Source: Stenotrophomonas sp. 610A2 (GTDB lineage Bacteria; Pseudomonadota; Gammaproteobacteria; Xanthomonadales; Xanthomonadaceae). From it: DNA of 64,000 nt. This document shows positions 2,642 through 41,724 of this stretch, one piece after another. Position 1 is the first letter of the stretch, and every line of letters begins with the position of its first letter. A program made the translations under genes and the position numbers. The notes below the pieces were generated by a model. It was not told the origin of the DNA. It searched no databases and saw nothing but the letters and a program-made list of their open reading frames with translations. The stretch lies in NCBI RefSeq assembly GCF_030549615.1, contig NZ_CP130832.1:2108001-2172000 (forward strand), given 5' to 3'.

Positions 2642-5233
2642 ATGTTGGAAGCCTACCGCCACCACGTAGCCGAGCGCGCCGCGCTTGGCATCCCGCCGTT
2701 GCCGCTCACTGCACAGCAGACGGCCGACGTCATTGAACTGCTGAAGAACCCGCCGGCTGGCGAAGCCGAGTTCCTGGTCGATCTGATCACCAACCGCGTA
2801 CCGGCTGGTGTCGATGACGCCGCCAAGGTCAAGGCCTCGTACCTTGCCGCCATCGCCTTCGGCAGCGAGCAGAACGCACTGATCAGCCGTGAGCGCGCTA
2901 CCGAACTGCTGGGCACCATGCTCGGTGGTTACAACGTCGCGCCGCTGATCCAGCTGCTGGACGACGCCGCAGTCGGCGCTATCGCCGCTGAAGGCCTGAA
3001 GCACACCTTGCTGGTGTTCGACGCATTCCATGACGTGCAGGAAAAGGCCAAGGCCGGCAACGCCAATGCACAGGGCGTGCTGCAGAGCTGGGCCGATGCC
3101 GAGTGGTTCACCAGCAAGCCGGAAGTGCCGCAGAGCCTGACCATCACCGTGTTCAAGGTGCCGGGCGAAACCAATACCGACGACCTGTCGCCGGCTCCGG
3201 ATGCCACCACCCGTCCGGACATCCCGATGCACGCCCTGGCGATGCTGAAGAACAAGCGTCCGGATGCACCGTTCGTGCCGGAAGAAGACGGCAAGCGCGG
3301 CCCGATCCAGGAAATCCTGTCGCTGAAGGACAAGGGCCACCTGGTTGCCTACGTCGGCGACGTGGTCGGCACCGGCTCCAGCCGCAAGTCCGCCACCAAC
3401 TCGGTGCTGTGGTTCACCGGTGAAGACATCCCCTTCATCCCGAACAAGCGCTTCGGTGGCGTGTGCCTGGGTTCGAAGATCGCCCCGATCTTCTACAACA
3501 CCATGGAAGACGCCGGCGCACTGCCGATCGAGCTGGACGTGTCGAAGATGGAGCACGGCGATGTCGTCGAGCTGCGTCCGTACGACGGCAAGGCCCTGAA
3601 GAACGGCGAAGTCATCGCTGAGTTCCAGGTCAAGAGCGACGTGCTGTTCGACGAAGTGCGCGCCGGTGGCCGTATTCCGCTGATCATCGGCCGTGGCCTG
3701 ACCGCCAAGGCACGTGAAGCGCTGGGTCTGCCGGTCACCGACCTGTTCCGCCTGCCGGTGCAGCCGGCCGATACCGGCAAGGGCTACTCGCTGGCACAGA
3801 AGATGGTTGGCCGCGCCTGTGGCCTGCCGGAAGGCAAGGGCATGCGCCCGGGCACCTACTGCGAACCGAAAATGACCTCGGTGGGCTCGCAGGACACCAC
3901 CGGTCCGATGACCCGTGACGAGCTGAAGGACCTGGCCTGCCTGGGCTTCTCGGCCGACCTGGTGATGCAGTCGTTCTGCCACACCGCAGCCTACCCGAAG
4001 CCGGTGGACGTCAAGACCCACCACACCCTGCCGGAGTTCATCTCCACCCGTGGCGGCGTCTCGCTGCGTCCGGGCGACGGCGTGATCCACAGCTGGCTCA
4101 ACCGCATGCTGCTGCCGGACACCGTCGGCACCGGTGGTGACTCGCACACCCGTTTCCCGGTCGGCATCTCGTTCCCGGCCGGTTCGGGCCTGGTCGCCTT
4201 CGCTGCTGCCACCGGCGTCATGCCGCTGGACATGCCGGAGTCGGTGCTGGTGCGCTTCAAGGGCAAGATGCAGCCGGGCGTGACCCTGCGTGACCTGGTC
4301 AACGCGATCCCGCTGTACGCGATCAAGGCCGGTCTGCTGACCGTGGCCAAGGCTGGCAAGAAGAACATCTTCTCCGGTCGCATCCTGGAAATCGAAGGTC
4401 TGCCGGACCTGAAGGTCGAGCAGGCATTCGAACTGTCCGATGCTTCGGCTGAGCGTTCGGCCGCTGGTTGCTCGGTGCACCTGAACAAGGAGCCGATCAT
4501 CGAGTACCTCACCAGCAACATCACGCTGTTGAAGTGGATGATTGCCGAGGGTTACCAGGACGCCCGTTCGCTGGCCCGCCGCATCGAGAAGATGGAAGCA
4601 TGGCTGGCCAACCCGGAGCTGCTGCAGGGTGATGCCGACGCCGAATACGCCGCCGTCATCGAGATCGACCTGGCCGACATCCATGAGCCGATCGTGGCCT
4701 GCCCGAACGACCCGGACGACGTGAAGACCTTGTCCGAAGTTGCCGGCGCCAAGATCGACGAAGTGTTCATCGGTTCGTGCATGACCAACATCGGTCACTT
4801 CCGTGCTGCTGCCAAGCTGCTGGAAGGCAAGCGCGACATCCCGACCCGTCTGTGGGTTGCACCGCCGACCAAGATGGATGCGTCCGAGCTGACCAAGGAA
4901 GGCGTGTACGGCACCTTCGGTTCCGCTGGCGCGCGCATGGAAATGCCGGGCTGCTCGCTGTGCATGGGCAACCAGGCGCAGATCCGCGAAGGCTCCACCG
5001 CGATGTCGACCTCGACCCGCAACTTCCCGAACCGCCTGGGTCGCAACACCAATGTGTATCTGGGTTCAGCCGAGCTGGCCGCGATCTGCTCGCGTCTGGG
5101 TCGCATCCCGACCAAGGAAGAGTACATGGCCGACGTTGGCGTGCTGGATTCGGCGGGTGCCGAGATCTACCGCTACATGAACTTCGACCAGATCAGCGAT
5201 TACAAGGACGTGGCCGATTCGGTCAACGCCTGA
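2642..5233 (+). CDS. acnB: Bifunctional aconitate hydratase 2 / 2-methylisocitrate dehydratase AcnB
   Basis: TCA-cycle aconitase B, 863 residues, close to the 865 of E. coli AcnB. The order of parts is that of AcnB: an N-terminal helical HEAT-like domain ([19 protein letters not shown]), the swivel domain next ([26 protein letters not shown]), then the cluster-binding core. The three iron-sulfur ligands are C713 (IGSCMTN), C771 and C774 (GCSLCMGNQ). The family is known to act on citrate and 2-methylisocitrate and to bind mRNA when it loses its cluster. GGGAG lies just before the ATG. A strong rho-independent terminator follows at 5263-5288. Identification is certain. Confidence 0.98.
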
Positions 5234-5262
5234 GTTGTAGCTGAGCAGTAAAGGTTGAACGG

Positions 5263-5288
5263 AAAACCCCGGCGCAAGCCGGGGTTTT
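5263..5288 (+). terminator. Rho-independent terminator of acnB
   Basis: Stem CCCCGGC / GCCGGGG with a GCAA tetraloop, flanked by AAAA before and a run of six T after (5285-5290). It starts 30 bases after the acnB stop. Confidence 0.93.
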
Positions 5289-5324
5289 TTGTTGCCGAGG
5301 AACACCAGCAATCGTTGTTGCTTT

Positions 5325-5422
5325 TGTGGGAGCGGCGTAAGCCGCGAAACCAATGCACCAGTAGATTGCAAAGTGTGCGGTTCTTTGTTGCCCCCAGCAT
5401 CGCGGCTGACGCCGCTCCCACA
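5325..5422. repeat. REPIN-like element, copy 1 (98 bp)
   Basis: Inverted arms TGTGGGAGCGGCGTAAGCCG at the left and the matching CGGCTGACGCCGCTCCCACA at the right enclose a unique centre. Each arm is itself a small palindrome. Two arms in inverted orientation at fixed spacing is the REPIN pattern mobilised by RAYT (REP-associated tyrosine) transposases; no such transposase lies in this window. Confidence 0.82.
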
Positions 5423-5537: not shown

Positions 5538-6435
5538 AACGCAGAAAACCCTGCGTGGCCCGGGGAAGCACAGCGCAGTTGGGAGGTACCGTTCTTGGCG
5601 GAAAGTACCTAGAGGCCACAGCTGCGAAAAGTGATGCCATTAGCCAACAGCCAACGCTCCTGGAGCATCTTCCCGGCTCGCAGCACCCTCCTAAGCGTGT
5701 ATCCCAATAATGATGTCTTTCGGGGCGGTCATGCAAAGGAGATTGGAGCCCTTTTGCGAGAAGCTCTCACTTAGTTTTTTGGGGCTGCTGACACCAAGTG
5801 GGGATAAACGCCGGCCGCAGGCTTGGGAGTGATTACTGGCGATCGATTAGGTCCCAGGACGTAAGTTTTGCATCTTTAAGACTATCCCTATTCTGGAAGC
5901 TACGCGTCGCGTGTAAGTTATCAGAAGTAGTCATGGCGCTGACATCTTGGCTTCGGCGTTTCTCTCGGAGAACTGCAAGTTCTACTATTTGTTTTGTAGA
6001 GAAATGTAGTGGGGGGGTATTTCGATTTTATTTTCGATTTCTGGAAATTCCTCTCCGGGTTGAGGCTTAAGGGGTAAGGTGTTCCTGAGTCGGATTATGT
6101 GCGCGCATGATGATTTTTGTGCGATATAAAGTTTCTATTTGTAATTGGGGTTTTTAATATAGCGTGGCGAATTTTGGTCGTTCGGATGATGGCTGTGCAT
6201 AATTTCCAATATTTTTGGATTTTCTTGTTGTTCGGCTGGATTGTTCGATTGGATGAGTGTGCACCAAGCGGTGAATTAAATAAGGCCTCTCCTGCGTCTC
6301 TCTTGTTTGTCTGCCTGAAGTCGGGATTGATTTTTTGATATGCACTATGGTGTTGGGTGGGCTATAGCTTGCGCTGCTATCGAGGGGTGTAGCTGTAAAT
6401 CTTTGGCAGTATGTAGAATCGTTGTGGGGCATCGC
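5538..6435. other. AT-rich stretch with no supported gene
   Basis: About 900 bases between the REPIN pair and the hybrid kinase. Base composition drops visibly, above all in 5870-6340, which is full of T and A runs unlike the flanking genes. Short open frames exist (for example 5798-6070), but none has high-GC codon use, a recognisable domain or a convincing ribosome-binding site. It probably holds the kinase promoter and may be foreign or decayed DNA. Confidence 0.5.
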
Positions 6436-9400
6436 ATGGCTCGTGTATTCGCTATTTTGGTGACTCTTCTTATTATGGCGTCTGGAGTGTGCGCTGCTCA
6501 GCCTTCAAATTCGACGATTTTGACGCTCGTTGCGCGCAGAGTCGTCCCTGACGCCCGGCTCTTGCTCGATGAGTCAGATCGAGAGTGGGTAAGAAGCAAG
6601 AAGGTTCTGATTTTGGGGGTTGCTCCACCAAACTACACACCGTTAGAAATTTTTTCCCGCAACGATCACTATGAAGGAATTACTGCTGATGTGCTCGGAG
6701 CTGTCGGCGGAATGTTGGATGTAAGCTTGCGGGTCATTAGCTTCCCGGACCGTACAACTGCACTGCGTGCGCTCGAGCATGGAGTGGTGGATATGGTGGG
6801 CAGCGCCAATAACTACGAGCTCGCTGGCCATGCGGTTCGCTTGACGCAGCGCTACGTGGAAGACACCCCCGTGTTGTACGTGCGCAAGACCGAGCACCGG
6901 CGCATGGCGCCGGAACTGACCGGCATGCGCATTGCCGTTGCCGAGGACTATCTGCCGCAAGTGCAGATACGCGAGCTGTATCCGGATGCGATCATTGCCA
7001 ACTTTCGCTCGCGCGAGCAGGCGCTCGCTGCATTGGCATTTGGCAATGCGGATCTATATCTGGGCGATACGGTTTCCAGTAACTACCTGGTGAATCTGAG
7101 CTACTTCAACTACGTGCGCACGATTGCCGTGCCGCGGGTCGATACCGGCGGCTTTGCCTTTGCTGTCCGCGAAGATGCCTTGACCCTGGAGCGAGTGGTG
7201 AACATGGCGCTGCAGCAGTTGCAGCAGACGCATGGCACGGAGTTGCTGAAGCGTTGGTCGGGCGGCGGTGGCATGGTGCCTTTGGCGCGTATAGAGCTGA
7301 CCAGTGCAGAGCAGCGCTGGATCGCGGAGAACCCGGTGGTGCGCTTCGTGGCCAGCAATGACACTGCGCCGCTTTCCTACTTTGATACCGATGGTCGCTT
7401 CAGCGGCTTGAGCGCTGACATCATGAGGGCCATTGCGCAACGCACCGGTCTGGAGTTCGAAGCGGTGCGGGTATCGCGGCTCGACCAGCAGATGCAGGCC
7501 TTGGAGAATGGAACCGCTGATCTGACCATGCTGGTGCCGACCTCTTCGCGTGCGCGCAGGTTCAGCTTCTCACGGCCGTTCGTACAGACCTCGTTCGGCA
7601 TCATTACCCGCGACGAGGCCAACGGCCCCGCCGCGCTGAGCGACCTGCGTGGAAAGCGTATCGCGTTGCCGCTGCACCATGCGCTGAAGGAATTGTTGGT
7701 CCCTGCGACCGACTACCAGTTCATCGAGACGGACACCTTGGCTGCCGCGATGGAGCTGGTGAACGACGGCAAGGCGGATGCGACGATCGCATTCCTGCCG
7801 ATGGCGCTGTATTACACCTCGGTACTGCACAACGAGAAACTGCGTGTGTCGGATGTGGTTGAAGACACGCCGGCGTGGTTGGCGATTGCCTCGCGCAAGG
7901 ACAAGCCCGAGCTCGCAAGTATCATCGACAAGGCGATGATGCAGATCCCGCCCGATGAGGTGGACATCTTCCAGAACCGCTGGCGGCCGCGCCCCGATGC
8001 ATCCCCGGCAGCGTGGACCGACTTCCGCTCATTGATCTACAAGATCACCGCCGGCGCTCTGTTGCTTATCCTGGTGTCGCTGATCTGGAATGTACACATA
8101 CGCACACAGTACCGTCGTCGCCAGGTAGCTGAGGATGCATTGGGCGAGCAGCTCAACTTCATGCGCTCGCTGATCAACGGCACGCCGCACCCTATCTACG
8201 TCCGTGATGAGAAGGGAAGGTTGGTTACTTGCAATACCAACTACCTGGACATGCTTTCCGTCACCGAGAAGAAGGTGCTTGGAAAGACCTCGATGGAAGG
8301 CGCAAAGATGGACCCGCGTGAAGCCCAGAGCTTCCACGACGACTATCTGTGGGTAATGGCCAATGGCAAACCCTTGGAGGTGGATCGCACCCTGCACCTG
8401 CCCGGGCGTGTGCTCAGCATCTATCACTGGATCTACCCGTACTTCGATTCCCAGGGCCAGGCCAAGGGCGTGGTTTGCGGCTGGATAGATGTGAGCGACC
8501 GCCTGCATCTGATGGAGGAGCTGCGCCGCGCGCTCAATGCCGCCGATCAGTCAAGTCGCGCCAAGACCACTTTCCTGGCCACCATGAGCCACGAGATCCG
8601 GACGCCGATGAGCGCGATCATCGGCATGCTGGAGCTTGCGCAGAAACATGCCGAACAAGGCCGTCTTGATAAGTCAGCTATCGCAGTTGCCTATGATTCC
8701 GCACACGGCTTGCTCGAGCTGATTGGCGATATTCTGGACGTGGTACGCATCGAGTCGGGCCACGTCAGCTTGAGTCCGAAGCGCGCCAATCTGCGTGAAA
8801 TGACCGAGTCTGTGGCGCGGGTATTCAATGGTCTGGCGCGGCAGAAGACGTTGCACCTGCGCTTGGAGCTGGATCCCAGCGTGGACTGCGACGTGTCGAT
8901 AGATCCGATGCGCTTCAAGCAGGTGCTGTCCAATTTGGTCGGCAACGCCATCAAGTTCACCGACCGCGGGCAGGTCACCATCAAGGTGCGCGGCGTTGTC
9001 GTGGCGGAATCCCGTCTACAGCTGCGGCTGGAAGTGGCGGATACCGGCATTGGCATCGCCGAGAGCGATATCGCGCGCTTGTTTGATCCTTTTGCGCAGG
9101 CCGACCACGGGCATAGCTCGCGCGGTGGAACGGGCTTGGGCCTGCCCATCTGCAAATTCCTGTGCGAGTTGATGGGCGGCGATATTTCCATCCGCAGTAC
9201 GCTGGGCGAGGGTACCTCGGTGATACTCAATATCCCACTCGAAGTGTTGCCGGCAATTCCCGGCGCCGTTGAGGTGCTGCAGACGGTGGATGCAAAGCAC
9301 CCGAGCATGAAGGTGCTGGTGGTGGATGACCATTCGGCCAATCGCACTTTGCTGACCCAGCAGCTGGCATTCCTCGGCCAGAGTGTGCGTAGTGCTGCCG

Positions 9401-12601: not shown

Positions 12602-14761
12602 TCAGCTGGCCATGGCCAGCGTTTGTGGCTGCTTGGCCGCAGCGGGTTGGGCGCTCAGCTGGAATACCGCCACCGCTTCATCCAACAACGTGGCCTGTTC
12701 TTCCATTGCGCGTGCTGCGGCGGTGGCTTCTTCGACCAGTGCGGCATTCTGCTGGGTGGTTTCGTCCATCTGCATGACGGTCTGGTTGACCTGCTCGATA
12801 CCTGCAGACTGCTCCTGCGAGGCAGCGGAGATCTCGGCCATGATGTCGGTGACGCGTTGAACCGCGGTGACGATCTCGCCCATGGTGGTGCCGGCCTGCT
12901 GCACCAGCTGCGAACCTTCGTCCACGCGCTCGACCGAGTCTTCGATCAGGGTTTTGATCTCCTTGGCGGCGCCGGCCGAACGTTGGGCGAGGGTACGGAC
13001 TTCGGCGGCAACCACGGCGAAGCCGCGGCCCTGCTCACCGGCGCGGGCAGCTTCAACCGCGGCGTTCAGCGCCAGGATATTGGTCTGGAAGGCGATGCCG
13101 TCGATCACGCTGATGATGTCGGCGATGCGACGTGAGGACTGCTGGATCTGACCCATGGTGGTGACCACTTCTTCCACCACCAGCCCGCCGCGTGAGGCTA
13201 CCCCGGCTGCACCGATCGCCAGCTGGTTGGCCTGGCGTGCGGATTCCGCATTCTGGCGGACGGTGGAGGTCAGTTCCTCCATCGACGCTGCGGTTTCCTC
13301 GAGGTTGGCGGCCTGCATCTCGGTGCGGCGCGAGAGATCAGCATTGCCGGTGGCAATCTCGCCGGCGGCCAGATTGATGCTGTCGGCAGACTGCTGGATC
13401 CCGGAAACGATGCCGGCCAGCTGGGAGACGGTGCTGTTTGCGTCTTCACGCATGCTGGCGAAGACGCCCTGAGCGTCGCCGCTGAGTTTGACGGTGAGGT
13501 CGCCGTCGGCAAGCGCCTGCAGCAGGCGCGATACTTCGCCCAGATTGTCGTCGCTGACCTGCATCATGGTGTTCAGGGCACGCACCATGGCCTGGAAGTC
13601 GTGCTCGAAGCGGTCTTCATCGCCGCGCTGGCTGAAGTCGCCGGCAGCGGCGGCGCTGCCCAGGCGCTTGATCTCGCTGTTGATGGCAGCCAGGTTGGTC
13701 TTGATGGCGGCCATGGTTTCGGTGATGACGCGCTTGTCGCCGGGCAGCAGCGGCATGTCCTGGCTGAGGTCACCGACCGCATAACGCTGCGCCAGCGCGA
13801 TCACCTGCATCTTGACGTCGATGTGGTTGCTGACCAGCACATTGGTCTCTTCAACCATGACGCCGTAATCGCCGGGGAAGCGGCTGGCGTCGATGCGGTA
13901 GCCGATCATGCCGGCGTCATGTTGGCGAGCCATCTCGGCCTGTGCGCCAATCACCGCCCGCAGCTGGTCCTGCATATGCGACATGCTGCTGAGCAATTGG
14001 CCGGTTTCGTCCTTGCTGGGGGCAGCGATGTGGTTGTCCATGCGCCCCTTGGCGATGGCGGTCGCCACGGCCGTGGCATTGCGCAGTGGCAGCACGATGC
14101 GGTTGCCGATGATCCAGCTCAAGGTCAGTACCAGCAGCACCAACACACCACCAGCCACCGTCATGATTGCGGTGAACTTCAGGGCCTGGCCCTGCAGATC
14201 GTCCATGTAGACGCCGCTGGATACCACCCAGTTCCACGGCTTGTACATGCCTGCATAAGCAAGCTTGCCAACCACGCCATCCTTGCCGGGCTTGGCCCAG
14301 GTGTAGGCGACATAGCCGCCACCCTTGCGTGCGGCTTCGACCTGGTCGTAGTAGACGCGGACGCCGTCCTCGCCGCGGAAGTCCTTCATGTCCTTGCCGA
14401 CCAGGTCAGCACGGAACGGATGCATCAGCAACACGTACTTGGTGTCGTAGATGTTGAAGTAGTTGACGTCGGCGTCGGAACGCATCTTCTGCAGCGCGGC
14501 CATGGCGTACTTCTGTGCGTCAGCGAGCGGCATCGCGCCGGTTTCCGCTTCCTTGGCGTAGTGGTCGAGAACGCCGTAGCTCATTTCCACCTGGGCGCGC
14601 AGCGCGTCCTTGCGGGTTTCGTACAGATCCAGGTACTGCATGCGGGCAGCGATGACCGCCAGCGTGATCACACCGATCACGATCAGGGCCGTCAGCAGGT
14701 TCAGCTTGCGCCTGACGGAGATGTTGGAAATGTAGTTGTTCCAGAGCGAGAAGATAGTCAT
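12602..14761 (-). CDS. Methyl-accepting chemotaxis protein, single Cache (type 2) sensor, multi-HAMP
   Basis: Membrane chemoreceptor of 719 residues, first gene of the MCP-cheR-cheD-cheB operon. Order: short cytoplasmic start, TM1 (about 20-42), a periplasmic single Cache_2-like domain ([17 protein letters not shown], then [11 protein letters not shown]), TM2 (about 195-218), HAMP, two or three further HAMP-like segments marked by [17 protein letters not shown] and GDLTVKL, and the signalling hairpin tip with [18 protein letters not shown]. Small acids or short aldehyde-like metabolites are common ligands of such sensors, but no ligand can be assigned. Unlike the other four MCPs here it lacks a WQEF tail and ends TLAMAS. 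A sigma-28 promoter lies at 14813-14839. Confidence 0.95.
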
Positions 14762-15143: not shown

Positions 15144-17516
15144 TTAGAACTCCTGCCAATCCGAGTCAGCCAGTTCGGCTACTGCGGTGCGGGCAGCGGC
15201 TGCGCGACGGCGAGGTGCCGGTGCTGCTGCCTGGACGGCGGGGCGGGGTGCCGGTTCACGTGCGGAAGCCGCGCTGCTGGTGACAGCGGCGCCTTCTTCC
15301 AGCTGGAACACGGATACCACGTTGGCCAGATGTGCGGCCTGTTCTTCCATCGAGCGGGCCGACGCGGTGGCTTCTTCGACCAATGCGGCGTTCTGCTGGG
15401 TGGTTTCGTCCATCTGCACGATGGTCTGGTTGACCTGCTCGATGCCGGCCGACTGCTCCTGCGAGGCAGCGGAGATCTCAGCCATGATGTCGGTCACACG
15501 CTGCACCGAGGCGACGATTTCGCCCATGGTGGTACCAGCCTTGCGAACCAGCGCCGAGCCATCGGCGACCTTGCCGACGGAGTCGTCGATCAGGCCCTTG
15601 ATTTCCTTGGCGGCGCCGGCCGAACGCTGGGCCAGCGTGCGAACTTCCGAAGCCACCACGGCGAAGCCGCGACCCTGCTCGCCAGCACGTGCGGCTTCCA
15701 CCGCAGCGTTCAAGGCGAGGATGTTGGTCTGGAAGGCGATGCCGTCGATCACCGAGATGATCTCGGCAATCTTGCGCGAGGACTGTTCGATCTGGGTCAT
15801 GGTGGTGACCACCTGGCTGACCACTTCACCGCCCTGCGAGGCCACCGAGGCAGCGCCGATGGCGAGCTGGTTGGCCTGGCGAGCCGATTCTGCGTTCTGG
15901 CGCACTGTGGAGGTCAATTCCTCCATCGATGCTGCAGTTTCTTCCAGGTTGGCGGCCTGCTGCTCGGTACGACGCGACAGGTCGTTGTTGCCGGCGGCAA
16001 TTTCGCTGGCGGACGAGTTGATCGACACCGAGGACTGCTTGATGCGGCCAACGATGCCGGTCAGCTGTTCGGCGGTGGCATTGGCGTCGTCACGCATGGT
16101 GGCGAACACGCCTTGGTACTCGCCATGCATGCGCACGGTCAGGTCGCCGCGCGAGAGCGCAGACAACAGTGCGGAGATCTGCTCCAGGCTGCTGGCATTG
16201 GCGTCCAGCAGGCTGTTGATCTGCTCGGCCAGCTGCAGGAAGAAGCCGTCCTTGTCGGCAGTGCCGATGCGGCCGCTGAGGTCGCCAGCAGCGGCGGCTT
16301 CCATGATGCGCGCCACTTCCTTCTCGACCTGGGCCTCGGTGCTGCGATCGCGCCATTCGACAACGTGGCCAACCGGTACATTGTTGTCGTCACGGATCAC
16401 CGAAATGGTCTGTGCGAACTCGGCTTCACCAAAGCGCATTTCACGCTTGAATACGCCGTTCTTCTCGAGACCTTCCATCACCTTGCCGTCAACCTCGCCA
16501 CGGTGCTCGAGCACGGTGACCGGCTGGCCGACCAGTGGCTTGCTGGCGTCGAAGTCGGTCAGTGCGCTGCTGATTTCCTCGTGGTGCTCGCTGAGCTTGT
16601 CGAGCAGGGCGCGGTTGGCGTAGACGATCTCGAGGTCGTTGTTGGTCAGGAACACGCCGGTGGACGAGTAGTCCAGTGCGGTACGGATGCGCAGGTTCTC
16701 GCTGGCGATGACCTGGTCACGGTCGATGCGTTCGCGCAGGTCGCGCTGCATGCGCTGCATGGCGCGCAGCAGATCACCCACTTCATCGGCACGGGAGACG
16801 TCGATGGAACCATCCAGCTTGCCGCTGGCCACTTCATTGGCCACGTCCACGGCGCCACGGATGGTGGCAACCAGCGAGCGCGCAAACAGCCAGATCAGTG
16901 CCAGACCGGCAGCACCACCGACCAGCACGGCGATGATGCCGACCAGGGCGGAGGTGCGATAGGTATCTTCGGCCTGCTTTGCGGCGGCCTGGGCGCGGGT
17001 GTTGTCGTTCGCGGCAAGTGCTTGCAGGGCGTTATAGGCATTGCGGTGCAGGTTGCGGGTTTCGCCTACGAAGGTGTCGATGGCGTCATCCGGCAGGTCC
17101 AATGCCAGCATCTCGGTTACCGCGTCGTAGGACGACGCAGCCTTGCCCCAATCAGCGACAAAGGCCTCGAACAACTTCTTCTGCTCCGGGCTGTCGATCA
17201 GCTTCGGATAGGCAGCGATGGTGGTGTCGATCTGCATGCGCAGTTCGGTGGCACGTGCCTTGGCATCGGCTTTGACGTCATCGCTGGCGCGCACCAGGCT
17301 CTGGTAGGACGCGTTGCGGTACTCGCTGACCATGCCGCTCAACTCACCGGTGGTGCGAAGACTGGGCATGCGGTTTTCAGCGAGGTCGGTGGTGACGTTG
17401 TTCAACGAGTGCAGGCCGCGATAGGCGACGACACCCTGCAACAACATGACGAACAGCACGACGCCGAAAGTAAGCATCAGCTTCGGCTTCAGTTTCAGCG
17501 AGTTGATCCACTGCAT
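15144..17516 (-). CDS. Methyl-accepting chemotaxis protein with four-helix sensor, HAMP-PAS-HAMP linker
   Basis: Membrane chemoreceptor of 790 residues. Order: TM1 (about 12-30), a periplasmic four-helix-bundle domain (about 35-185), TM2 (about 195-212), HAMP ([15 protein letters not shown]), a cytoplasmic PAS-like domain (about 275-375; [31 protein letters not shown]), more HAMP-like segments ([20 protein letters not shown]) and the signalling hairpin ([18 protein letters not shown]). It ends DSDWQEF, a likely CheR/CheB tether. The PAS domain could sense redox or a small ligand; no cofactor residue is recognisable. The gene lies 83 bases after the OB-fold gene on the same strand and could share its sigma-28 promoter. 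A strong terminator follows. Confidence 0.95.
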
Positions 17517-17566
17517 CTTGCGCGATCTCCGGGAACAGGCCCCGCCATGTCACAGGCGCGGGGTGG

Positions 17567-17587
17567 CACGCCGGCATTGCCGGCGTG
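17567..17587. other. Intercistronic hairpin between OB-fold gene and MCP
   Basis: A perfect 9-base stem, CACGCCGGC / GCCGGCGTG, with an ATT loop, 12 bases past the OB-fold gene stop. No T-run follows on the minus strand, so it may stabilise the upstream message or cause partial termination before the MCP gene. Confidence 0.55.
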
Positions 17588-17599
17588 ACGAAAGGCGGA

Positions 17600-17983
17600 T
17601 TACTTGATGTTTGCCAGCTTCAGGTTGGCCGGCGATGCCACTTCGATTTCGGCGCGCGATGCGTCGCGCTGGATCTTGCCGATCACGCAGACGGTCTTGC
17701 CTTCCAGGGTCTCCAACGGGAAACCGAACTTGCTGCGGTTGCTGCCGGCGATACGTGCCGAGAAGGTGTGGCGCGGGAACATGCCGCCCATGTGCAGGAA
17801 GGTCGGCTGGCCTTCGGAGCCTTCGGCGTAACGGGCCTTCTCAACCTTGCCGCAGACCATGCCGTCCTTGCCGGCGAAGCGCGCAGCGGTTTCCGGCGGG
17901 ATCATCTCGGCATCGGCAACGGCGTCGAACGCGACGGTGGCCAGAACGGTGGCGGCAAACAGCGGAAGTACATGCTTGTACAT
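17600..17983 (-). CDS. Secreted small OB-fold protein, function unknown, chemotaxis-associated
   Basis: A 127-residue protein. I start it at 17983 because MYKHVLPLFAATVLATVA gives a clear signal peptide ending near AVADA, and GGAG precedes that ATG; a longer frame to 18127 would put 48 non-signal residues first and run over cheW. The mature part has the rhythm of an OB-fold: MVCGKVEKARYAE, PTFLHMGGMFPRHTFSARI, then GKTVCVIGKIQR and AEIEVASPANLKL. This fold binds nucleic acid or oligosaccharide in other proteins; here the ligand is unknown. The likely place is the periplasm. A good sigma-28 promoter lies upstream, and it sits between cheW and an MCP, which points to motility or chemotaxis. I know no flagellar role for it. 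Confidence 0.8.
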   Translation of the reverse strand: MYKHVLPLFAATVLATVAFDAVADAEMIPPETAARFAGKDGMVCGKVEKARYAEGSEGQPTFLHMGGMFPRHTFSARIAGSNRSKFGFPLETLEGKTVCVIGKIQRDASRAEIEVASPANLKLANIK

Positions 17984-18038
17984 CGAAAACTCCGGGAAGG
18001 GAAAGTAGGGCCGGTCGGGGAGGACGGGCATGCAATGG

Positions 18039-18065
18039 CTATCGGCCCGTAGTTGCCGGGCTTGA
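18039..18065 (-). promoter_or_regulatory. Sigma-28 promoter for the OB-fold gene (and possibly the following MCP)
   Basis: Minus strand: TCAA (18065-18062), exactly 15 bases, GCCGATAG (18046-18039). The -10 lies about 55 bases before the ATG at 17983. Confidence 0.8.
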
Positions 18066-18107: not shown

Positions 18108-18599
18108 TCAAGCCGCCTCTTCGGCAACGCTCGGCTGGCCGAGGTCGGCGGTATCTAGCAGGGTTTCGATGTCCAGCAGGATCAGCATGCGATCGTCCTG
18201 GGTGCCGATGCCGGAGATGAAGCGGGTATCGACGGCGGCGCCGAATTCCGGGGTCGGGCGGATCTGCTCGGCGTTGAGCGGGATCACGTCGGAGACGCTG
18301 TCCACCACGATGCCGACAACGCGGTCTTCGACATTGAGCACGATCATCACGGTGAAGGCGTCATAGCGGGCTTCGTCCAGGCGCAGCTTCAGGCGCAGGT
18401 CGATGACCGGCACGATGGTGCCGCGCAGGTTGATGACGCCCTTGATGTAGTCCGGCGCATCCGGCACCCGGGTAACAGCGTCATAACCGCGGATTTCCTG
18501 CACCTTGAGGATATCCACGCCGTAGTGCTCATTGCCGAGGGTGAAGCTGAGGTATTCGCCGCCGGTGGTATCGGTGGCGGTGGTGCGGGAGTCATTCAT
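18108..18599 (-). CDS. cheW: Chemotaxis adaptor protein CheW
   Basis: Adaptor that couples CheA to chemoreceptors in the signalling array. It has 163 residues from the ATG at 18599, where AGGA gives a ribosome-binding site; a longer frame to 18647 adds 16 residues with no support. The two SH3-like subdomains are clear: LSFTLGNEHYGVDILKVQEI, then INLRGTIVPVIDLRLKL and VGIVVDSVSDVIPL. The conserved NLRG loop that meets CheA is present. A separate sigma-28 promoter lies 51 bases upstream. It is the only plain CheW in the window; the other CheW-like domain belongs to ParP. Confidence 0.97.
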   Translation of the reverse strand: MNDSRTTATDTTGGEYLSFTLGNEHYGVDILKVQEIRGYDAVTRVPDAPDYIKGVINLRGTIVPVIDLRLKLRLDEARYDAFTVMIVLNVEDRVVGIVVDSVSDVIPLNAEQIRPTPEFGAAVDTRFISGIGTQDDRMLILLDIETLLDTADLGQPSVAEEAA

Positions 18600-18774: not shown

Positions 18775-18810
18775 AAAGCCAAGGCCAAAGCCAAAGCCAA
18801 AGCCAAAGCC
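18775..18810. repeat. Hexanucleotide microsatellite (AAAGCC), six copies
   Basis: Six units of AAAGCC, the second altered to AAGGCC, between the pilZ stop and the cheW promoter. The unit length is a multiple of three and no gene covers it. Confidence 0.9.
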
Positions 18811-18827: not shown

Positions 18828-19601
18828 TTATTCCCCGTTGCTGCGTGCCTTACGCAGGCGGTCGATCCTGAAGATGTAGCGCTGGATGATGTTGTCGGCG
18901 CCGCGCGGCAGGTCGTCGAAGCGCAGGCCGATGCGGGTCATCTCCGAACCGTTGGGCTGCTTCTGCTGGCGCAGGTTGCAGACCACAAACGAGGCCTTGA
19001 TCGGTGCCCCTTCGGGAACCTCCAGCAAGCAGCTGTAGCGGCTCTGCAGCTTGAGCAGGTTCTGGTCGGGCGGCAGCAGCAGCGCCATGCCGCCTGCGCT
19101 GATGTCGAGCACGCGCCAACGGCTGGATTCGCCGCCGTCGGGGTCTGGCAGCACGCAATACGGCGAATCGCCAACCGGCGTTTCCAGGCGATAGAACTCG
19201 CGCCGCTGCAGGTGGTAAACCTCCTCCGGCAACGGCATCTCAAAGGCAGTGTGGTCGCCACGCTCAACGCGGTGATGGCCCTGCAACTGGAAGCGCACCA
19301 TGACCTTGTCGACCTGGCCGAAGCAGAGCAGGGTGCTTGCAGTTTCCACGGAGCGATTGATCGATGGGACCGGGCTGGCATCCAGCATCAGGCCCTGCAT
19401 GTCCACTTCGAGCACCGCCGAAGGAAAGGACTGGTCGCGCCCATCCGGGTGCACATTGATCATCGAACGCTGATCGATCATGGCCTGCAGCAGATGCCTC
19501 ACCTGATGCGGGTTACGCACCATGTAGCGGTCATCGGCATACAGGTTGCCGGCGTGTGGCGAGGGCGTCGGTGCAGTCGATTCGTGGTCGGGCATGGACA
19601 C
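18828..19601 (-). CDS. YcgR-like flagellar brake protein with PilZ domain
   Basis: Predicted cyclic-di-GMP receptor of 257 residues. An N-terminal YcgR domain (about 28-125; MVRNPHQVRHLLQAMIDQ) is followed by a PilZ domain with the binding motif QRREFYRLETP and the later DISAGGMALLLP. In enteric bacteria YcgR, once loaded with cyclic-di-GMP, slows the motor by contacting the stator or rotor. Its place next to cheW and in a region with a cyclic-di-GMP phosphodiesterase gene (48006-50126) fits that role. A weak sigma-28-like site lies at 19655-19681. The gene runs divergently from the methyltransferase. The product could instead control another output, since PilZ partners vary. Confidence 0.9.
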   Translation of the reverse strand: MSMPDHESTAPTPSPHAGNLYADDRYMVRNPHQVRHLLQAMIDQRSMINVHPDGRDQSFPSAVLEVDMQGLMLDASPVPSINRSVETASTLLCFGQVDKVMVRFQLQGHHRVERGDHTAFEMPLPEEVYHLQRREFYRLETPVGDSPYCVLPDPDGGESSRWRVLDISAGGMALLLPPDQNLLKLQSRYSCLLEVPEGAPIKASFVVCNLRQQKQPNGSEMTRIGLRFDDLPRGADNIIQRYIFRIDRLRKARSNGE

Positions 19602-37820: not shown

Positions 37821-37847
37821 ATATCGGCCTCGTTGTAGCGGTCTTGA
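37821..37847 (-). promoter_or_regulatory. Sigma-28 promoter for motC-motD-parC-parP
   Basis: Minus strand: TCAA (37847-37844), 15 bases, GCCGATAT (37828-37821). The -10 ends only 7 bases before the motC ATG, so the first transcribed base should fall about at the start codon. Confidence 0.8.
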
Positions 37848-40974: not shown

Positions 40975-41724
40975 TCATGGTTCCTCGAGGCCGGCGTCTG
41001 CCGCCTCGAAAATCTTCAGCCGCCCTCGCAGGCGCAGCATGGCTTGGCCGTGGATCTGACAGACGCGGGATTCGCTAACGCCCAATACCGCGCCGATTTC
41101 TTTCAGGTTCAATTCCTGCTCGTAGTACAGCGACAGCACCAGCTGTTCGCGTTCCGGCAGGTGGCCGATGGCCTTGCCCAGCTCGGCACCGAACTGGCTG
41201 CGCTCCAGCACCTGCTGCGGGTTGGGGCCGCCGGTGGTCGGGGTGTCCAGTTCGCCCTGGTCTTCGATGCGCGATTCCAGGCTCAATACCTGTCCGCGCG
41301 AGGCGTCTTCGACCAGTCGCATGTATTCGGGCAGCGGCAGTTCCATCGCTTCGGCCACTTCGCTGGCACTGGCCGCGCGGCCGCTGCTCTGTTCGAGGCG
41401 ACGGATGGTGGCGGCAGCGTCGCGGGCGCGGCGGTGCACCGAGCGCGGCACCCAGTCGCCACGACGGATCTCGTCGATCATCGAGCCGCGGATGCGGATG
41501 GATGCATAGGTCTCGAACGATGCGCCCTGTTCGGCGTCATAGCTGCGCGAGGCCTCGATCAAACCCATCATGCCGGCCTGGATCAGGTCGTCGACCTCGA
41601 CGCTCGCAGGCAGGCGTGCGGCCAGGTGGTGGGCGATGCGGCGGACCAGGTCGGCGTGGCGGGTGATGCAGTCATTGGCCGCACTGCGCTGGACTTCACG
41701 GTATTGAGCGGCTGCATTGTTCAT
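40975..41724 (-). CDS. fliA: Flagellar RNA polymerase sigma factor FliA (sigma-28)
   Basis: Sigma factor that reads late flagellar and chemotaxis promoters. It has 249 residues: region 2 ([36 protein letters not shown]), region 3 ([18 protein letters not shown]) and region 4 with the helix-turn-helix [19 protein letters not shown]. It overlaps flhG by 4 bases. Its expected targets are seen across the window: sites with TAAA or TCAA, 15 bases and GCCGATA before motC, cheW, MCP genes and the OB-fold gene. FlgM, its usual inhibitor, is not in the window. Confidence 0.97.

Follow-up and report, generated by a model that had tools for sequence, protein, structure and literature searches.

A predicted secreted OB-fold protein encoded with a four-helix-bundle chemoreceptor in Xanthomonadaceae: a candidate periplasmic co-receptor

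Why a small secreted protein should be encoded between cheW and a chemoreceptor gene, behind what looks like a flagellar promoter, is the question raised by one locus of Stenotrophomonas sp. 610A2. The window analysed here is the whole stretch of 64,000 nucleotides around it (contig NZ_CP130832.1, positions 2,108,001 to 2,172,000). The first-pass annotation described a protein of 127 residues, bearing a signal peptide and encoded between cheW and a methyl-accepting chemotaxis protein (MCP) gene, and translation together with Pfam analysis of the neighbours confirms this description. OBsec serves as a working name for the product of 17600..17983. On the minus strand, the order runs from a YcgR-like gene through cheW, OBsec, the four-helix-bundle (4HB) receptor, and an sCache_2 MCP to cheR, cheD, and cheB (Table 1); the last three were named by eye from the ORF list and then served as search queries. 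The same window contains fliA at 40975-41724 (contig 2149014-2149667). Six copies of AAAGCC occupy 18775-18810, between cheW and the YcgR-like gene.

Table 1. Coordinates of OBsec and neighbouring features within the window
Feature	Position	Strand	Basis or remark
YcgR-like gene	18828-19601	-	Upstream of cheW
cheW	18108..18599	-	Pfam CheW; upstream neighbour of OBsec, frequent, not constant
Sigma-28 (FliA)-type promoter, TCAA-N15-GCCGATA	18040..18065	-	Exact match
OBsec, secreted OB-fold protein, 127 aa	17600..17983	-	Translation, homologues, predicted fold
83-bp gap between OBsec and receptor gene	17517..17599	-	GC-rich hairpin without T run; without sigma-28 site
Partner chemoreceptor, 790 aa: periplasmic 4HB, HAMP, PAS, HAMP_2, MCP signalling domain	15144..17516	-	Pfam
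Second MCP (sCache_2), next 3' gene	12602..14761	-	Pfam; own sigma-28 site at 14839-14814

A scan of the window OBsec against Pfam and NCBIfam returned no family at E<=1, and a PDB sequence search returned nothing credible. Relatives number 284 by protein search and 560 by profile search. Among the 120 listed from each, the names that are given read "hypothetical" or "secreted protein", and the sources are Stenotrophomonas, Xanthomonas, Pseudoxanthomonas, and a few unclear labels. One locus (L053) lies on a contig titled Bacillus subtilis with a Stenotrophomonas-like chemotaxis cluster; that assembly is probably mislabelled or contaminated.

The best of five AlphaFold models of OBsec is a predicted OB fold with a five-stranded barrel, while four of the five scored poorly. 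In a fold comparison, the top matches of the model are the OB domains of AsnRS/AspRS and RPA. Export was judged from the signal peptide by eye. Cys44 and Cys99 are invariant in all 28 aligned diverse sequences, and both are missing together in two distant relatives. Comparison supports an extracytoplasmic OB-fold protein, as had been suggested. OBsec would be exported and might fold in the periplasm as a barrel closed by a disulfide.

The predicted fold is shared with the OB-fold nucleic-acid-binding superfamily (AspRS/AsnRS anticodon domains, archaeal RPA, PF01336), but OBsec differs from that superfamily in being secreted and in having two cysteines in its core. PF01336 (tRNA_anti-codon) has no match in the window OBsec and matches 2 of 28 relatives below the cut-off (best E 0.06). 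The BOF family (YgiW/VisP, YdeI; PF04076) consists of periplasmic OB proteins, and OBsec is likewise predicted to be a small exported OB protein. PF04076 is not among the eight Pfam families matched by the 28 relatives at E<=10. No BOF chain occurs among the 50 rows listed in the fold comparison, which is uninformative either way.

An exact TCAA-N15-GCCGATA lies between cheW and OBsec, with its end 56 bp 5' of the OBsec ATG. The exact motif occurs seven times in the 4.68-Mb genome, six times on the minus strand; all four copies in the window precede motility genes. A reversed-pattern control matches the genome once. Upstream of OBsec orthologues, a site with at most one mismatch is present in 12 of 15 genera. 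In genus g9 the site precedes the second of two tandem OBsec copies only (two of three genomes looked at), and in g25 it has two mismatches in one genome and is absent from another. Genera g24 (paired copy) and g28 have a weak site or none that was found. When a 14-bp spacer is scored as half a mismatch, sites with at most 1.5 mismatches precede OBsec in 79/80 genome-contig, 20/20 family, and 12/20 diverse loci. Of 126 OBsec copies, 107 have GCCGATA itself 30-110 bp 5' of the gene; for comparison, it occurs in 298 of 15405 80-bp windows in the same loci. Conservation of the site across 12 genera supports by comparison the late-class sigma-28 promoter first proposed for this gene. OBsec resembles sigma-28-dependent late flagellar and chemotaxis genes in promoter type and cluster position, but differs in that its product is a secreted protein without assigned function. 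Elsewhere in the window, the sigma-28 site of a motA-like gene (37822-37847, minus strand) ends 8 bp before the likely ATG (37813), and an mRNA starting from it would be leaderless or nearly so.

None of 119 loci has a sigma-28 site in the gap that separates OBsec from the receptor gene. The best scores there, 2.5-5 mismatches, resemble those of shuffled upstream DNA (means 3.2-4.2). Comparison across these gaps argues for the shared transcript with the following MCP that had been surmised at the outset. OBsec and its receptor are inferred to share this transcript with OBsec in excess over the receptor, by analogy with binding-protein operons. In many gaps (24 gaps listed), the OBsec stop codon is followed by a strong hairpin that lacks a T run; the window hairpin (17517-17599) is possibly an intercistronic stabiliser. 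At orthologous loci the gap hairpins are similar in strength and differ in sequence.

OBsec was found in 47 of 149 family genomes, representing 15 genera. All 53 carriers among 298 order genomes are Xanthomonadaceae, and the 10 matches among 397 phylum genomes divide into seven from the same family and three distant ones (39-61 bits). Of the 149 family genomes, 78 have FliA and 86 have FlgI, and every one of the 47 OBsec genomes carries both fliA and flgI. The co-occurrence of OBsec with fliA has a Fisher p of 4e-18, uncorrected for relatedness. Within the genus, OBsec and fliA occupy the identical 85 of 87 genomes, and the other two (G352, G773) have neither. Three genomes from two other genera (G056, G126, G027) lack OBsec and FliA while their congeners have both. 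These losses are independent support for a link between OBsec and flagella, to which G111, with FliA kept and OBsec absent, is an exception.

The strict dependence of OBsec presence on fliA and flgI would suit a protein that forms part of the flagellar motor or helps to assemble it, and contact between motor and wall was among the first guesses for OBsec. However, 31 of the 78 fliA-positive family genomes lack OBsec, and its constant neighbour is a receptor gene, with no stator or ring gene in such a position. A motor-wall role was rejected on these two grounds, and a motor part of any kind appears highly improbable.

The pairing with the receptor was followed with a profile (A3) of the first 210 receptor residues, the 4HB-type periplasmic domain, built from paired receptors. 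In all 47 OBsec family genomes, the A3 match starts 25-120 bp 3' of the OBsec match on the same strand. The profile took rows from 16 of these genomes and none from the other 31, so that finding it in the 47 is partly expected by construction. Conservation of the neighbourhood extends beyond a few strains. Among the 78 fliA-positive genomes, A3 matches at E<=1e-30 in 47/47 with OBsec versus 1/31 without, and this near absence outside OBsec genomes is the informative part of the result. The sole OBsec-negative match, in G062, is unpaired and scores 130 bits, near the paired but divergent receptor of G090 (141 bits). At E<=1e-10, A3 has no match in five genomes from which OBsec has been lost. 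G111, which kept fliA, retains an A3 remnant of 46.6 bits, and its congeners keep OBsec and A3. For the remaining FliA-positive, OBsec-negative genomes, the A3 threshold was 1e-30 only.

Gene order at individual loci points the same way. An ORF of at least 200 aa starts 11-225 bp 3' of OBsec at 119 of 121 loci (window included), the two exceptions being L003, at a contig end, and L111. By homology, a receptor follows OBsec at 79/80 genome-contig, 20/20 family, and 19/20 diverse loci. A cheW gene lies within 1 kb 5' at 80/80, 20/20, and 9/20 of these loci, respectively; at the diverse loci, cheW adjacency fails 11 times in 20 and receptor adjacency once. Genera g9 and g28 have tandem copies of OBsec in front of a single receptor gene. 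L111 (6025-6399) is a second, divergent, unlinked OBsec copy in G023, with no receptor behind it and a two-mismatch sigma-28-like site upstream. With the same receptor type 3' of OBsec in 47/47 genomes, the comparison strongly favours the earlier guess of a receptor accessory factor.

The receptor domain that OBsec accompanies appears to be the periplasmic one. PF12729 (4HB_MCP_1) was found in the window receptor and in all 10 other paired receptors scanned, and a structure model of the periplasmic domain is helical. A PAS family was found in 7 of the 10. In two receptors of genus g28 (L112, 3640-5988; L115, 3605-5974), poly-HAMP domains (HAMP_N3, HAMP_2) replace PAS while 4HB and OBsec are kept, and the L057 receptor has neither PAS nor poly-HAMP at E<=0.001. 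The PAS domain noted in the following MCP is therefore not a constant feature. Because 4HB is present in all and PAS is exchangeable, the link follows the periplasmic domain as the constant partner. Conservation was also considered as a guide to a docking surface at the membrane-distal tip. The distal half of the paired 4HB domain is more conserved (2.82 vs 2.29), yet two unpaired control receptors follow the same trend (2.97 vs 2.50 and 2.86 vs 2.52), so that conservation at the tip is not specific to the paired receptors and was dropped as an argument for docking there. The alpha3-alpha4 loop, around residue 143, stands out at 3.2 against 2.4-2.5 and is a weak lead.

OBsec and the receptor gene might form a two-gene, sigma-28-driven chemoreception module in which OBsec is a periplasmic co-receptor, likely ligand-binding; this reading, drawn from sequence comparison, is given about an even chance. 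Its basis is the promoter site, the predicted OB fold, the conserved pair, and joint presence and absence. OBsec would work with the 4HB domain of its own receptor, presumably by physical binding, and most likely would bind a ligand and dock there in the manner of maltose-binding protein on Tar. Signals from the receptor would then reach CheW/CheA by way of HAMP, PAS, and the MCP domain. Counted against the module are the unlinked L111 copy, the missing or weak promoter sites in g24, g25, and g28, the G062 receptor, and the four poor OB models. Conserved adjacency may also come from co-regulation alone.

The pairing evidence also fits a constitutive accessory of the receptor, one that has no small ligand and would serve to fold, stabilise, cluster, or gate the 4HB domain. 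Several conserved OBsec residues are partly structural (V43, G45, G95, G102), as such an accessory might have. Against it, H72, R77, and the E57-G58 region are invariant or nearly so across the receptor-linked set, and conserved polar residues of this kind would suit a binding surface, although the evidence is weak. The accessory without ligand is considered unlikely, and an OBsec that brings a ligand is favoured over one that merely tunes the receptor.

Relatives outside the family bear on whether OBsec acts apart from the receptor, for instance as a secreted or periplasmic binder of nucleic acid or polysaccharide that merely shares the flagellar promoter. These distant relatives are single secreted OB proteins. 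The three distant-match genomes have no FliA over the cut-off, and no MCP was recognised in the ORFs beside the relatives at three of four places (L136 left out). Two distant relatives match PF01336 below the cut-off. Independent action would also account for the unlinked copy at L111. Joint loss with the receptor and adjacency in 47/47 genomes argue against it, and the net charge of the OBsec domain, -2.9 to +4.0 (pI 5.1-9.7; 28 sequences), is not steadily positive as expected of a nucleic-acid binder. Action apart from the receptor is accordingly considered quite unlikely. Two distant loci have neighbours of separate interest. At L135, a 473-aa protein (3279-4700), whose C-terminus resembles an OBsec-type OB domain by eye, adjoins a single secreted OB protein (5031-5414). 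At L133, the distant secreted OB protein (4847-5215) lies about 1.2 kb from an ORF (6408-6800) that by eye resembles a nuclease of staphylococcal-nuclease type.

For the co-receptor reading, the closest known parallel is maltose-binding protein with Tar, a chemoreceptor assisted by a periplasmic binding protein. In both, an exported soluble protein (predicted for OBsec) is paired with a four-helix-bundle chemoreceptor. As in receptors of this type, the partner is kept with its receptor (adjacent in 47/47; A3 alone in 1/31), and the periplasmic domain is a four-helix bundle by PF12729. Unlike maltose-binding protein, OBsec is a predicted 100-residue OB barrel rather than a two-lobed solute-binding protein, is probably encoded within the receptor's own transcription unit, and has no transporter genes seen beside it. 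Oligonucleotides or oligosaccharides would be natural ligand candidates for an OB fold. The specific proposal that a tiny barrel closed by a disulfide, encoded by the leading gene of its receptor's flagellar operon, captures them in the periplasm and signals via a dedicated 4HB receptor, with PAS and poly-HAMP exchangeable and the periplasmic pair kept, is speculative and unlikely to hold in every part.

In the Xanthomonas literature, XAC1892 is listed among MCPs reduced in a phoP mutant (PMC6562643) and described as a receptor of unknown ligand domain (PMC8547431), and XAC1891 and XAC1893-1897 are listed as chemotaxis genes (PMC3751643); OBsec could not be matched to an XAC tag, and these entries carry no weight in the readings given here. 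A FliA tier in Xanthomonas is supported by the accessible parts of four papers, and those parts contain no mention of the OBsec gene (PMC5550985, PMC10714752, PMC3826837, PMC7970052). In the open-licence literature searched, no paper was found that deals with OBsec or describes an OB-fold partner of a chemoreceptor.

OBsec offers a handle on one receptor type across 15 genera, including the well-studied Stenotrophomonas and Xanthomonas. To our knowledge, no ligand has been described for most four-helix-bundle receptors, and here a neighbour annotated as hypothetical may be what binds it. If OBsec binds nucleic acid or sugar fragments, the OB barrel would join the short list of folds that feed chemoreceptors. 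Through its receptor, OBsec may help swimming bacteria sense a stimulus.
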